A stretch of 64,000 nucleotides of DNA from an uncultured Hellea sp. (GTDB lineage Bacteria > Pseudomonadota > Alphaproteobacteria > Caulobacterales > Maricaulaceae). Numbering within the stretch: the stretch's first letter is position 1; every line of letters starts with the position of its first letter. Both the position numbers and the translations under genes were made by a program. Shown here piece by piece: positions 32,278-37,460 of this stretch. The stretch covers positions 41,303 through 105,302 of the forward strand of contig CAJQGR010000010.1 of assembly GCA_905477785.1 (NCBI GenBank), in the 5' to 3' direction. A model generated the notes under the pieces. That model made no database searches. It saw only the letters and a program-made list of their open reading frames with translations, and was not told where the DNA came from.

Positions 32278-32940
32278 ATGACTTTTGGAAATGAAACTGT
32301 AACTATCGGCAGTATGTCAGATAGTGAATCAAAAACATATTCAGATTCAAGACGCGCTTCTCCCAAGAGCATGAGCGCCGCTAAAAGAGATGCCCACTGG
32401 TTATATTCAATAGCAAATAAACAAGATGCAAGAGCGCTTTCTGAATTATTTGAAATTTATGGACCAAAATTGAAAGGCTGGCTTATGGCCAGAGGAGTCG
32501 GTAACGGCACTGCCGAAGATATAGTTCAAGATGTGATGATCAAAGTTTGGACTAAAGCAGGTAGTTTTGATCCTACAAAAGCGAGTTTCGCTACTTGGGT
32601 CTATCGCATGACAAGAAACCGTTGGATTGACCACAAAAGAAAGCATGGAAGAATGGATGTTAGGGATCCTGACCTAATGAAAATCATTGCCGATGATGAA
32701 GTTCAATCTGCCGAAGTCAACTTTATGGCTCAACAGAACTCCGATATTTTAAAAGAACAGATCTCTCGTTTAACCAAGGCGCAACAGATGGCAATTCGAA
32801 TGGCCTTCATGGAATATAAAACACATAAAGAGATTTCTGAGGAGACAGGTTTGCCCTTAGGGACAGTTAAAACACGTATCAGAAGTGCTATTCAAGCTTT
32901 AAAGGCGAATATGGCAAAACATATAGGTCAAATACAATGA
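32278..32940 (+). CDS. ECF-type RNA polymerase sigma factor
   Basis: region 2 (AEDIVQDVMIKVWTKAGSFDPTKASFATWVYRMTRNRWIDHKRK) and region 4 (KTHKEISEETGLPLGTVKTRIRSAIQAL). Confidence 0.9.
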   Translation: MTFGNETVTIGSMSDSESKTYSDSRRASPKSMSAAKRDAHWLYSIANKQDARALSELFEIYGPKLKGWLMARGVGNGTAEDIVQDVMIKVWTKAGSFDPTKASFATWVYRMTRNRWIDHKRKHGRMDVRDPDLMKIIADDEVQSAEVNFMAQQNSDILKEQISRLTKAQQMAIRMAFMEYKTHKEISEETGLPLGTVKTRIRSAIQALKANMAKHIGQIQ

Positions 32941-33602
32941 CATTCTCAGTTGATAAAAAAATAAAGATTTCAGAAGATATAATTACTGAATACGCAGCAG
33001 GTAATCTTAGCCCAGCTAAGCACACTGTTGTGGCATGTCAGAGCGAGATATGTGAAGAAGTTTCAAGCCGTATAATGTTTCAAGAGCAAATTGCAGCGTC
33101 TATGATTGAAGAGGTCCAAACTAAAATCCTTTCTCCCCTTTTCATGGGAAACGTTTTGGCAAATTTGCCTCCTCAAGACAAATTTTCATCTAATAATACT
33201 AATATCGAAAATAACTCTCCACGAACACTTAGCCATCTTTTAGGGTGTGGGTTAAATGAAATGAAGTGGAAATCACTAATACCTGGTGTGGCTGTTCATG
33301 ATATATTAGGTAATAGACATACTAAAGATGGTGATAGGCTATACCTTTTGAAGGCTAAAGGTGGAATGCAAATGCCTAATCATGGCCATAATGGGGAAGA
33401 GTGGACACTTATTCTAAAAGGCAGTTACAATGTTGGTGATAAAACTTTTGTCCGAGGCGATCTACACATTGAAGATGAAGATGAGATACATAGCCCCCAT
33501 ATTAACGAAGGTGAGGACTGTATTTGCTTGGTTATGACTCAAGGACCACTAAAAATGAAAGGTTGGCTTCCTCGGTTAGTTCAACCTTTAATAGGTATTT
33601 AG
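32937..33602 (+). CDS. ChrR-like anti-sigma factor (anti-sigma domain plus cupin)
   Basis: overlaps the sigma stop (ATGA); ITEYAAGNLSPAKHTVVACQSEICEEV then cupin MPNHGHNGEEWTLILKGSYNVGDKTFVRGDLHIEDEDEIHSP. Confidence 0.82.
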   Translation: MTFSVDKKIKISEDIITEYAAGNLSPAKHTVVACQSEICEEVSSRIMFQEQIAASMIEEVQTKILSPLFMGNVLANLPPQDKFSSNNTNIENNSPRTLSHLLGCGLNEMKWKSLIPGVAVHDILGNRHTKDGDRLYLLKAKGGMQMPNHGHNGEEWTLILKGSYNVGDKTFVRGDLHIEDEDEIHSPHINEGEDCICLVMTQGPLKMKGWLPRLVQPLIGI

Positions 33603-33603
33603 C

Positions 33604-36438
33604 TCAGCCATAAGCGTCATAGTGATGTGTTATGGCCACAGTTATTTGTCTTACGAGATTACCAGCTCTTTCTAGTGGTTTGATTATTGACTCAGTTATA
33701 TGAGGAAAGCCACCTGGCGGAGCTACTGGTTCGTTAGTCTTCTCCTGTAGTTGCTCTGTCCATTCCAATGCAGACCTTGTTTCCGGGTACCGATCTTTCA
33801 AATCCTTTATTATACTATCTATTTGAAATGTTTGTAGCTTTTGTAAAACATTTATTTGGGAGCTGCTTTCTTCACCAGCAGCAGGTAATTCTGTAGCTAT
33901 TATCATCATTTTCATAATAATTGATAACCTAAGTGCATGTAAGATCTCTAAATCCTCAATATTATAATCATTAGATACATTCATTTGAGTCTCAAAAAAC
34001 TTTATAGAATTATAAGTATCAATTCGTAATTGATTGGAAAGATCCATTATTTGTGATCGCCAAGAGAGTGATTTTAAAGTTGCGGCAACTTCTAAGCTCT
34101 TGCTTTCTAACCGAGGTTCATTGCTTGATATACCTCTACTAACCCAAAAACCAGGGTCAAATAGACGGCTGTAAGCACTCAATATTGACATATTTGTGCG
34201 TTCAAGTGAACTAATTACTAATGAGAAAATTGAATTTGCTCTTGGCGAATTTTTATAATGGTTTGAAAATTTTTCAATATCGATAGAAACAGCCTTACCA
34301 ATACCGTAAAAAATATTTGCCGGTATTCCAAACTGTTGTAAAATTGCATTATGCGGTATGGCACGTAGTTGCCTTGGATCAAACATACCAGATTCTGCTT
34401 TTGACCTTTTGGATGCTCTTGAGCCCGTTGGTATAAGAAGATTTTGTCCAAACCCTGAAAGCAATTTTATATAATTTGGATCATTATATAGATTTTCTTG
34501 TTGAGAGCTTATTGTTCTAAATACATCCCAAGAGAAATCAGTATCTTTGTAAAATATATCAATATCAGCTTCCTCTTTATTAGCATAACGTGCTTTTAGA
34601 AGAGAACTGATAGTGGCATTTGTTAAATCTTCAGTCTGGAACCACATAAAACCATCACCCCCTTGAAAGCTTGTTTCGTGGCAGATGGGTAATAAGCGTT
34701 TTTCGAATTGTCTCATTGCCCAAGGACTCATGACATAATTTATTCTATCTATTATAGACCCAGAATGCCCACCTCTTCCTAAACTTTCACCATGAGTATT
34801 GAATATAACTGCAGTTACATTCTTTAGGTTAAACTTCTCCATTTGCGATGCAAAATGCGAATGCAGGCGTTCTATTGCTAAGGTTGCTGGTATTTGCCCC
34901 ATAAATCTACCAGCATCAGAAAACCCTGTTTGAATTGCAAATACACCCCTATCCTTGATATACTCTCTGTATACTTCATTTTTCAACATTTTACCAATTA
35001 TACGACCTCCATTATTCAAAGCATCTGCTGTTTCAAATAATGGGGAAATATCTAAATATTTTTCAATTCCATATCTTTTAGCTAAATAGAGCATGCCCAT
35101 AGGAGTTAAGCTATCTTCACATTCAGCAATTAAGAGTCTTATGGGCGTTTCATCGTCAATATATTTGTGAATTTGTGCAGTTAGTATCATTTTTTCATGT
35201 GCTGTAGACTTTTCTAACGCCAATGAACCAAAATTTACTGGTTGTACTTTCACATTTTTTGTAAGTTTAGATGCTCTTAATAATAAAGTTCGTTTATCTG
35301 ACGTATGATCGGCTATTCCAAAAGTTGATTTTAATGCAGAAACAACATGCTGATTGTTTAAGCGAAAATGAATTCGAGCTGTACCAAGGCCAAAAGCGAC
35401 CATTTTTGACCGCAAACAAATTAAATCTCTATTAAGTTCAAATATTTCATTGTGCTCAAGTATCTTGTTTATGAGTTTAATTGGACTTTTAAGGTTTAGG
35501 AAGCGTCGGGTTGATGTTCTTGTAAGGTTATTTGCAGCTGCAACAAGATTTTCTGGATTTGTTATATCTTTTTCAAACAGAGTTAAATCTCTCTCGGCAC
35601 TTTCATGTGCGTCCGATAGTTTTTTTAAAAGTTCATCTAAATGATTATTTTCTTGTAAACTTTTTTCATATTTATCGCTTATATTTGAAACTGATTTTTT
35701 GTATCTATAGAGTTGATCTCTTTTTTCTTGAAGTCTTAGTCTTAAAGCATCCCCCCAACTTATGTCTGTTCTACCATCAATATCATACCCTACCCAACTG
35801 TATGCATTTATTAAGTGGGGCGTTATAGACTTCCAATCATCAGGAAATAACTTTCTACCTATACTGATGATGCTGCTGTTTATATTATCCAGCTCAATTT
35901 GAATTCTTTCGAGCGTTTCTTGTGTATCTTCATGTTCCTCTTTCAGTGTGGGTGCCCTTTTAGGTAAATAAGGGAAGCCTTTTAACTCTTCAACTGAACT
36001 ATTGTATTTAGTCTCCTGACTACTTGCAATTACTCCTAAACATTTACGTATATCTCGCGATAAAGAAAATGTTGGATGGGCTGTGAGAACTATACCAATA
36101 CCAGGGCTTTCAGCCCAAATTTTAAAAGCTTTAAACCCCTCATTAGCTTTTTGAAATGCTATTTTTTCTAGTGATTTCTTTGTATCACTATTACTGTAAA
36201 TACCAGCTCTTTTTCTTAATCTTCGGCTTCTTTGGATTGCTGCTTTGTCAGATATAGATTTAACTAAACTTTCTATATCTTTGAAAGCTACAGCACGGTC
36301 TTCAACATCTTTTGAAATATCGTAAGCTAATAATTTTATTGCATTAGACTGAGGATCAGAATTTTTATGGGTTCTATATTTAATTAATTTAGTTTTTAAT
36401 TGATCGTTTAGTTCTATAGATGTTTTTTTACGAGTAAT
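33604..36438 (-). CDS. ppc: Phosphoenolpyruvate carboxylase, divergent type, apparent ATT start codon
   Basis: The tracked ORF (33604..35415) is only the C-terminal part. The same frame is open with no stop up to TGA at 36469..36471 and encodes IGIVLTAHPTFSLSRDIRK, GYDIDGRTDI and, across the annotated start, LRSKMVAFGLGTARIHFRLN. No in-frame ATG/GTG/TTG upstream of 35415; ATT at 36436..36438 lies 7 nt after AAGGAG. C-terminal motifs HGESLGRGGHSG and GFSDAGRFMGQIPATLA. Confidence 0.85.
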   Translation of the reverse strand: MTRKKTSIELNDQLKTKLIKYRTHKNSDPQSNAIKLLAYDISKDVEDRAVAFKDIESLVKSISDKAAIQRSRRLRKRAGIYSNSDTKKSLEKIAFQKANEGFKAFKIWAESPGIGIVLTAHPTFSLSRDIRKCLGVIASSQETKYNSSVEELKGFPYLPKRAPTLKEEHEDTQETLERIQIELDNINSSIISIGRKLFPDDWKSITPHLINAYSWVGYDIDGRTDISWGDALRLRLQEKRDQLYRYKKSVSNISDKYEKSLQENNHLDELLKKLSDAHESAERDLTLFEKDITNPENLVAAANNLTRTSTRRFLNLKSPIKLINKILEHNEIFELNRDLICLRSKMVAFGLGTARIHFRLNNQHVVSALKSTFGIADHTSDKRTLLLRASKLTKNVKVQPVNFGSLALEKSTAHEKMILTAQIHKYIDDETPIRLLIAECEDSLTPMGMLYLAKRYGIEKYLDISPLFETADALNNGGRIIGKMLKNEVYREYIKDRGVFAIQTGFSDAGRFMGQIPATLAIERLHSHFASQMEKFNLKNVTAVIFNTHGESLGRGGHSGSIIDRINYVMSPWAMRQFEKRLLPICHETSFQGGDGFMWFQTEDLTNATISSLLKARYANKEEADIDIFYKDTDFSWDVFRTISSQQENLYNDPNYIKLLSGFGQNLLIPTGSRASKRSKAESGMFDPRQLRAIPHNAILQQFGIPANIFYGIGKAVSIDIEKFSNHYKNSPRANSIFSLVISSLERTNMSILSAYSRLFDPGFWVSRGISSNEPRLESKSLEVAATLKSLSWRSQIMDLSNQLRIDTYNSIKFFETQMNVSNDYNIEDLEILHALRLSIIMKMMIIATELPAAGEESSSQINVLQKLQTFQIDSIIKDLKDRYPETRSALEWTEQLQEKTNEPVAPPGGFPHITESIIKPLERAGNLVRQITVAITHHYDAYG

Positions 36439-36449
36439 TGTTTTACTCC

Positions 36450-37460
36450 TTAAAGAAACTTTGACATTTCAGAAGCTGTGTCTAGCATGCGGTTTGAAAA
36501 CCCCCATTCATTATCATACCAGCTTAAAACTCTAACCAAAGTGCCATCTATTACTATTGTTTCACCGGAGATAAGGTTTGATGAGTGAGGGTCATGATTA
36601 AAATCAATAGAAACTGTTTTATCATCAATTACTTGTAAAATATTTTTTAATGTTCCTTTTTCAGCATCTCTAAAGCTGTTTAAAACATCATCTATTTTTA
36701 CACTTTTTTGAAGGTTTACAGTTAAATCAACAGCAGAGACATTAGGTGTAGGTACCCGTATTGCTTTGCCATCAAGTTTTCCTTTTAACTCAGGAATTAC
36801 CAACCCTATTGCGCTAGCAACACCGGTTGATGTTGGAATCATTGACATGGCTGCTGCTCTTCCACGATTGAAATCTTTATTATGTATTGTATCAAGTGTA
36901 GGCTGATCGCCCGTGTAAGCATGTATAGTTGTCATAAAACCATTTTTTATGCCAAATGAATCATTAAGAACTTTCGCTACTGGTGCTAACGCATTCGTTG
37001 TACATGAACCGTTGGAAACAATTTTGTCAGACGCGTCTAAATTTTTATGGTTAACACCATATACAATGGTTTTATCGGCTTCAGCACCGGGTGCTGAAAT
37101 TAAGACACGTTTTGCGCCTGCCTTTATATGACTAAGAGCTTTATCCCTATGGGTAAATATTCCTGTACACTCCATAACGATATCGATGCCATCATCAGAC
37201 CAATTCAAATCCTCAAGATTACGAATTGAGGTAACATTTATTTTCTTTCCATTTACTTTTAAAATATCACCTTGGCTTTGTATTTCTCCATTGAATCGAC
37301 CATGTACAGAGTCATACTTAAATAGATGTGCTAAATTATCTGTTTTTGACAGGTCATTAACCCTAACTATCTCAATGTCTTTTTTATGGTTTTCTTCTAA
37401 GGCTCGCAAAATATTACGCCCTATACGTCCAAAACCATTTATAGCAATTCGGATGGTCAC
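36450..37460 (-). CDS. gap: Glyceraldehyde-3-phosphate dehydrogenase, type I
   Basis: MTIRIAINGFGRIGRNILRAL, SNGSCTTNALAPVAKVL, WYDNEWGFSNRMLD. Confidence 0.95.
   Translation of the reverse strand: MTIRIAINGFGRIGRNILRALEENHKKDIEIVRVNDLSKTDNLAHLFKYDSVHGRFNGEIQSQGDILKVNGKKINVTSIRNLEDLNWSDDGIDIVMECTGIFTHRDKALSHIKAGAKRVLISAPGAEADKTIVYGVNHKNLDASDKIVSNGSCTTNALAPVAKVLNDSFGIKNGFMTTIHAYTGDQPTLDTIHNKDFNRGRAAAMSMIPTSTGVASAIGLVIPELKGKLDGKAIRVPTPNVSAVDLTVNLQKSVKIDDVLNSFRDAEKGTLKNILQVIDDKTVSIDFNHDPHSSNLISGETIVIDGTLVRVLSWYDNEWGFSNRMLDTASEMSKFL

Follow-up and report, generated by a model that had tools for sequence, protein, structure and literature searches.

To our knowledge, well-supported and phylogenetically conserved non-NUG start codons are known in only a handful of bacterial genes. 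The infC gene is autoregulated by IF3, and sigR of Streptomyces has a GTC start that is repressed by IF3; this rare start is conserved in the genus (32 of 34 GTC, 2 GTT) and sets the ratio to the neighbouring gene (PMC5472188). The AUU start of pcnB of E. coli is described as keeping that gene low (Binns and Masters 2002, as cited in PMC13009471). The ccpN gene of S. aureus starts at AUA behind an extended Shine-Dalgarno (SD) sequence and is conserved as far as B. subtilis; in poor medium, this AUA and the AUU of cvfC1 gave about 10% of the yield from AUG (PMC13009471). The start of the ppc-like gene analyzed here joins this small class (infC, pcnB, sigR, ccpN), for which the gene is unexpected and the phylogenetic depth unusual, as it concerns a metabolic enzyme in at least seven genera. 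Our literature searches found no report of the start of this ppc-like gene.

Reading frame and start site of the ppc-like gene

The window, by which we mean the whole stretch of 64,000 nucleotides that was analyzed, carries gap and the ppc-like gene in the same direction, with the following features:

36450..37460 (-): gap, type I glyceraldehyde-3-phosphate dehydrogenase, GTG start, upstream partner of ppc (TIGR01534, 422 bits)
36469..36471 (-): TGA within gap, the upstream stop in the ppc frame (window sequence)
36450..36452 (-): TAA that ends gap, 11 nt ahead of the ATT (window sequence)
36446..36452 (-): Shine-Dalgarno sequence TAAGGAG, which overlaps the stop of gap (24 of the 25 ATH ppc sites have an SD match of 5 nt or more)
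36436..36438 (-): ATT, start of the ppc-like gene, spaced 7 nt from the SD (25 of 40 clade ppc copies have ATC/ATT in this alignment column, 16 of them without a plausible nearby NTG)
33604..36438 (-): predicted divergent PEPC-family protein, 944 codons with the ATT (PF00311, 67.5 bits; AlphaFold pLDDT 85.6; PEPC structure matches, E = 5e-19)
35413..35415 (-): first canonical in-frame start, TTG, codon 342, where the truncated ORF of the ORF list begins

An earlier reading of this DNA, made from the sequence only, had proposed that the ppc frame stays open for about 1 kb further upstream with no NTG codon. This proved correct: the frame (36438..33604, minus strand) is open across 944 codons, ATT included, and no ATG, GTG or TTG was found in it between the upstream in-frame stop and codon 342, a TTG that is followed by an ATG at codon 346. 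The SD said to overlap the gap stop was likewise found, as TAAGGAG at 36452..36446 with a spacer of 7 nt to the ATT, and so was the catalytic motif LTAHPTFS in the upstream part. The motif holds His121, the counterpart of the catalytic His138 of E. coli PEPC. Since His121 sits far upstream of codon 342, no canonical start could yield an intact enzyme. The site is of the infC and pcnB kind, with an ATH codon (ATA, ATC or ATT) at normal distance from an SD and without a usable NTG start. An NTG-free run of 341 codons is particular to the AT-rich genome of the window; in other relatives a TTG, GTG or ATG occurs at codons 11-191. An ORF caller that accepts only ATG, GTG and TTG loses these 341 codons, the catalytic histidine included, and the intact gene then seems truncated.

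Two observations concern the surroundings of the gene. The gap gene appears to start with GTG (GTGACCATCCGAATT), which is moderately weak for a gene of expected high expression. At 32278..33602 (+), convergent with the 3' end of ppc, the ORFs suggest a putative sigma-70-like factor gene followed by a putative ChrR-like cupin/anti-sigma gene.

Identity of the encoded protein

The protein had been called ppc in the sequence-only reading, and the name holds for the family and the fold. It scores 67.5 bits against PF00311 (gathering threshold 22.4), and its AlphaFold model (mean pLDDT 85.6) aligns with PEPC structures along about 1000 columns, at E = 5e-19 and 12-16% identity. In the alignments, H121, D508 and R555 match H138, D543 and R587 of E. 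coli PEPC. The name does not hold in the sense of a plain PEPC. The score against the NCBIfam equivalog PRK00009 was 85.8 bits, far from the cut-off of 815, and R511, N547 and H549 replace the active-site residues K546, H579 and R581 (E. coli numbering). These three replacements occur throughout the clade or nearly so. Among the 41 genomes searched, those of the family with a PF00311 match carry the divergent type only, and canonical PEPC (800-894 bits) was found in two other families of the order; none was found in the genome of the window. By sequence and structural model, then, the protein is a divergent member of the PEPC family, distantly related to canonical PEPC. PEPC activity is plausible on these grounds, and the reaction of the protein may also differ from that of PEPC.

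Conservation of the start codon

The source genome is that of a Hellea-like alphaproteobacterium. The closest named records to the window protein come from Hellea spp. (71-88% identity), and 40 copies of this divergent ppc type were read within the family. Aligning the junctions of relatives, a check suggested earlier, showed that the start codon is kept as ATC or ATT in at least seven genera. The Hellea-group copies of the same clade, with that of the window, read ATT, ATT, ATC, ATC, ATC, ATC and ATC at this column; the cultured isolate Hellea balneolensis DSM 19091 is among the Hellea copies with an ATH start, and in six other genera of the family the column is likewise ATC or ATT. Strict cases, with no plausible NTG nearby, number sixteen and come from seven genus groups (g1, g2, g6, g9, g12, g18 and g19). 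In nine more, all from genus g9, the SD is followed after 7-8 nt by ATC AAA CGN/CAT ATG; this ATG is an unlikely start because it lies 16-17 nt from the SD. Over the resulting 25 copies the column holds 22 ATC and 3 ATT codons. The remaining 15 of the 40 copies use a canonical start, displaced in each by at least one codon from the ATH column, and an ATG exactly at the column was found in none of the 40.

The sequence-only reading had taken the ATT for the start codon, which this conservation supports, and had named an ATG-to-ATT sequencing or assembly error as the main alternative. The draft state of the source genome (92 contigs) would allow for such an error or for a pseudogene. However, independent genomes, including that of the isolate H. 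balneolensis DSM 19091, show ATC or ATT, and the N-terminus is under purifying selection; an ATG at this position in close relatives was looked for and was present in none of the same-clade Hellea copies. We therefore regard this explanation as refuted by the relatives. Judged from these sequences, the AUU/AUC start is a real and conserved feature, since marine bacteria of at least seven genera retain it.

Where translation begins

When the copies are aligned on the ATH column, codon 1 is an invariant Ile codon in all 25, and the preceding codons show no conservation and often hold in-frame stops at a distance of 3-5 codons (3 codons ahead of the ATC in L008, L013, L054, L064 and L066). Right after the column a protein-like pattern sets in, with A/T, then R/K, and T at codon 6. 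For codons 2-341, dN/dS was 0.05-0.16 in four pairs, which argues that the N-terminal region is translated and selected. An SD match of at least 5 nt precedes 24 of the 25 ATH ppc sites, as against about 20% of the first ATGs of long ORFs of H. balneolensis and G010. Stronger SDs at non-canonical starts have likewise been reported in S. aureus (PMC13009471). We also looked for RNA structure that could hide the start; the five junctions folded showed nothing unusual (z from -0.95 to 0.57) and so give no hint of riboswitch-like control.

In the window the ppc frame continues open ahead of the ATT for a few codons and reaches into the end of gap, so that the N-terminus could in principle come from elsewhere: by stop readthrough or frameshifting out of gap, from another near-cognate codon, or not at all, the product being a truncated protein from TTG-342. 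The distance between ppc start and gap stop varies between relatives (-8, -9, -11, -12, -19, -26) and the frame is not constant, so readthrough or frameshifting cannot be the common mechanism. A product of TTG-342 would be without His121 and one third of the fold, and the ATH column alone is invariant. Together these origins appear very improbable to us.

ATH starts of infC and scans for other cases

As a control, the start of infC was read across the order:

infC loci L082-L111 and L173-L182: starts ATA, ATC or ATT

All 40 readable genomes had an ATH start at infC (20 ATA, 16 ATC and 4 ATT), so such starts are usable by the ribosomes of these bacteria, and the anatomy of the ppc start site is the same as that of infC here. 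In Hellea the infC start is ATC, and infC and many Hellea ppc copies open with ATC, Ala and basic residues, so that the two start regions look alike.

Scans for other ATH starts covered stretches only, namely 800 kb of H. balneolensis, 400 kb of G010 and the window. A scan based on codon usage, with a low power (8-22% of genes detectable), flagged ppc, one ORF at a contig edge and one restriction-enzyme-like fragment. The last, in L112 at about 8780 (-), is an ORF beginning KSWAAPKDANGELDHITAKTG... that matched in codon usage and resembles part of a restriction enzyme without a nearby NTG start; it is probably a broken or frameshifted gene. In a homology scan of the same stretches, ppc was the sole believable ATH case, the rest being antisense shadow ORFs or conserved 5' leaders. 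A lineage-wide relaxation of start codons was rejected on these scans, which for about 1.2 Mb and the window gave ppc alone as believable, within their limited power. Because the power of the codon-usage scan is low, further genes with an ATH start may exist in these genomes.

Linkage to gap and evolution of the start

ATH starts are found in 24 of 31 gap-linked and 1 of 9 unlinked copies (Fisher p = 0.0006, phylogeny ignored). The association did not hold under phylogenetic pairing and is not established, because only one informative independent pair was available. On the protein tree the start class switched at least 8 times and the gap linkage 3 times. The weak start can be dispensed with, since in seven of the 31 gap-linked copies of the family the start is canonical.

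The one unlinked copy with an ATH start is L068 (G026:C1:652400-655300), where the codon is ATC; it is a second ppc copy. Directly upstream of it lies a short relic (IPMVMAKFL*) of the C-terminus of gap; otherwise an unrelated gene precedes. As this relic adjoins the gene, L068 was probably copied out of a gap-ppc locus, by duplication or transfer.

In the window gap and ppc are co-directional, 11 nt apart and without a terminator-like site between them, as in a termination-coupled pair. This makes re-initiation a possible main route, in which ribosomes would remain at the overlapping SD after finishing gap and begin at the nearby AUU/AUC, so that ppc translation follows that of gap. The gap stop lies within or close to the SD, the distance from it to the aligned start column is 8-36 nt in gap-linked ATH copies, no terminator-like site was found between gap and ppc, and some ATG copies overlap the gap stop directly (TAATG in L014). 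Yet the strong SDs permit independent ribosome entry, and L068 retains its ATC behind a mere relic of the gap tail, so the dependence is not absolute. Nor would this route escape from IF3, since re-initiation is itself IF3-sensitive in E. coli (PMC2268962). We regard it as a real but minority possibility for the main route.

The history of the start bears on another explanation, that the ATH codon arose once and is a tolerated relic with no regulatory role, the strong SD giving enough yield. The weak start can be lost, as several lineages have gone over to canonical ones (8 changes), and 6 of the 15 canonical copies retain an ATH codon just before the new start, against a background of about 14%. 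Such codons ahead of new NTG starts are only suggestive as fossils of an older start. Against a relic, codon 1 has stayed ATC or ATT in seven genera whose proteins are about 50-88% identical, although ATG is one base change away; neutral drift should have fixed ATG at codon 1 more often, and no copy of the clade has it there. This explanation thus seems unlikely to us.

Proposed mechanism

The reading that we prefer is a weak start with a regulatory role. The AUU (AUC in most relatives) would be read by the initiator fMet-tRNA, with a strong SD about 5-9 nt upstream that would make up for the poor pairing of codon and anticodon. Initiation complexes at non-NUG codons are destabilised by IF3, so the ppc site should be intrinsically weak and its use dependent on IF3. 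Both enzymes would be made from one transcript, on which the weak start would limit synthesis of the PEPC-like enzyme to a small fraction of that of the abundant GAPDH; ribosomes that terminate at the end of gap may contribute. The ratio of PEPC-like enzyme to GAPDH would in this way respond to the state of IF3 and ribosomes in the cell, in the manner of infC. Sensitivity to IF3 and coupling to gap, both raised in the sequence-only reading, are inferences. The parts of this mechanism that rest on sequence are the codon, the SD, their conservation, the purifying selection on the N-terminus and the lack of another usable start. From its anatomy and by analogy with the described cases, the odd start probably holds down production of the enzyme. 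That a weak, IF3-discriminated AUU/AUC start, rescued by a strong SD, keeps a carboxylase-like enzyme low relative to GAPDH is in our judgement quite likely.

A bolder and rather doubtful extension is that in this alphaproteobacterial family the carboxylase-like enzyme and infC form a tiny IF3 regulon, in which an AUC/AUU start as old as several genera would tie carbon entry into the TCA cycle to free IF3 and ribosome status. If true, the regulon would exert translational growth-rate control over a metabolic branch point. Since H. balneolensis can be grown in culture, the start is accessible to direct experiment, and the gap-ppc junction offers a natural series of ATC, ATT, ATG, GTG and TTG for asking what the benefit of a weak start is, with infC as internal control.

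Comparison with known systems

The nearest likeness is infC, which shares with ppc an ATH start with an SD, usually no NTG near, and conservation across genera. Its start is AUU in E. coli and AUA, AUC or AUU in this order, and Ala-Arg codons usually come next, as they do in many ppc copies. It differs in that infC encodes the discriminating factor itself, whereas ppc, which comes second after gap, would be a downstream target of that factor. The pcnB gene has the same AUU start and is, presumably, neither metabolic nor the distal gene of a gap operon. Like ppc, sigR combines a conserved rare start with a partner gene next to it; in contrast, its start is GTC/GTT and not ATH, it is the first gene of a sigma/anti-sigma pair and its case is experimentally proven. 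The AUA starts of ccpN and citZ of S. aureus resemble that of ppc as non-canonical starts in central carbon metabolism, but both genes belong to Firmicutes, ccpN encodes a regulator and the AUA of citZ is confined to one strain lineage (PMC13009471). As to the enzyme, canonical PEPC (1fiy, PRK00009) has the whole-length fold and several catalytic residues in common with the window protein, whereas the two share about 12-16% identity in structure alignments and K546, H579 and R581 are replaced in the window protein.
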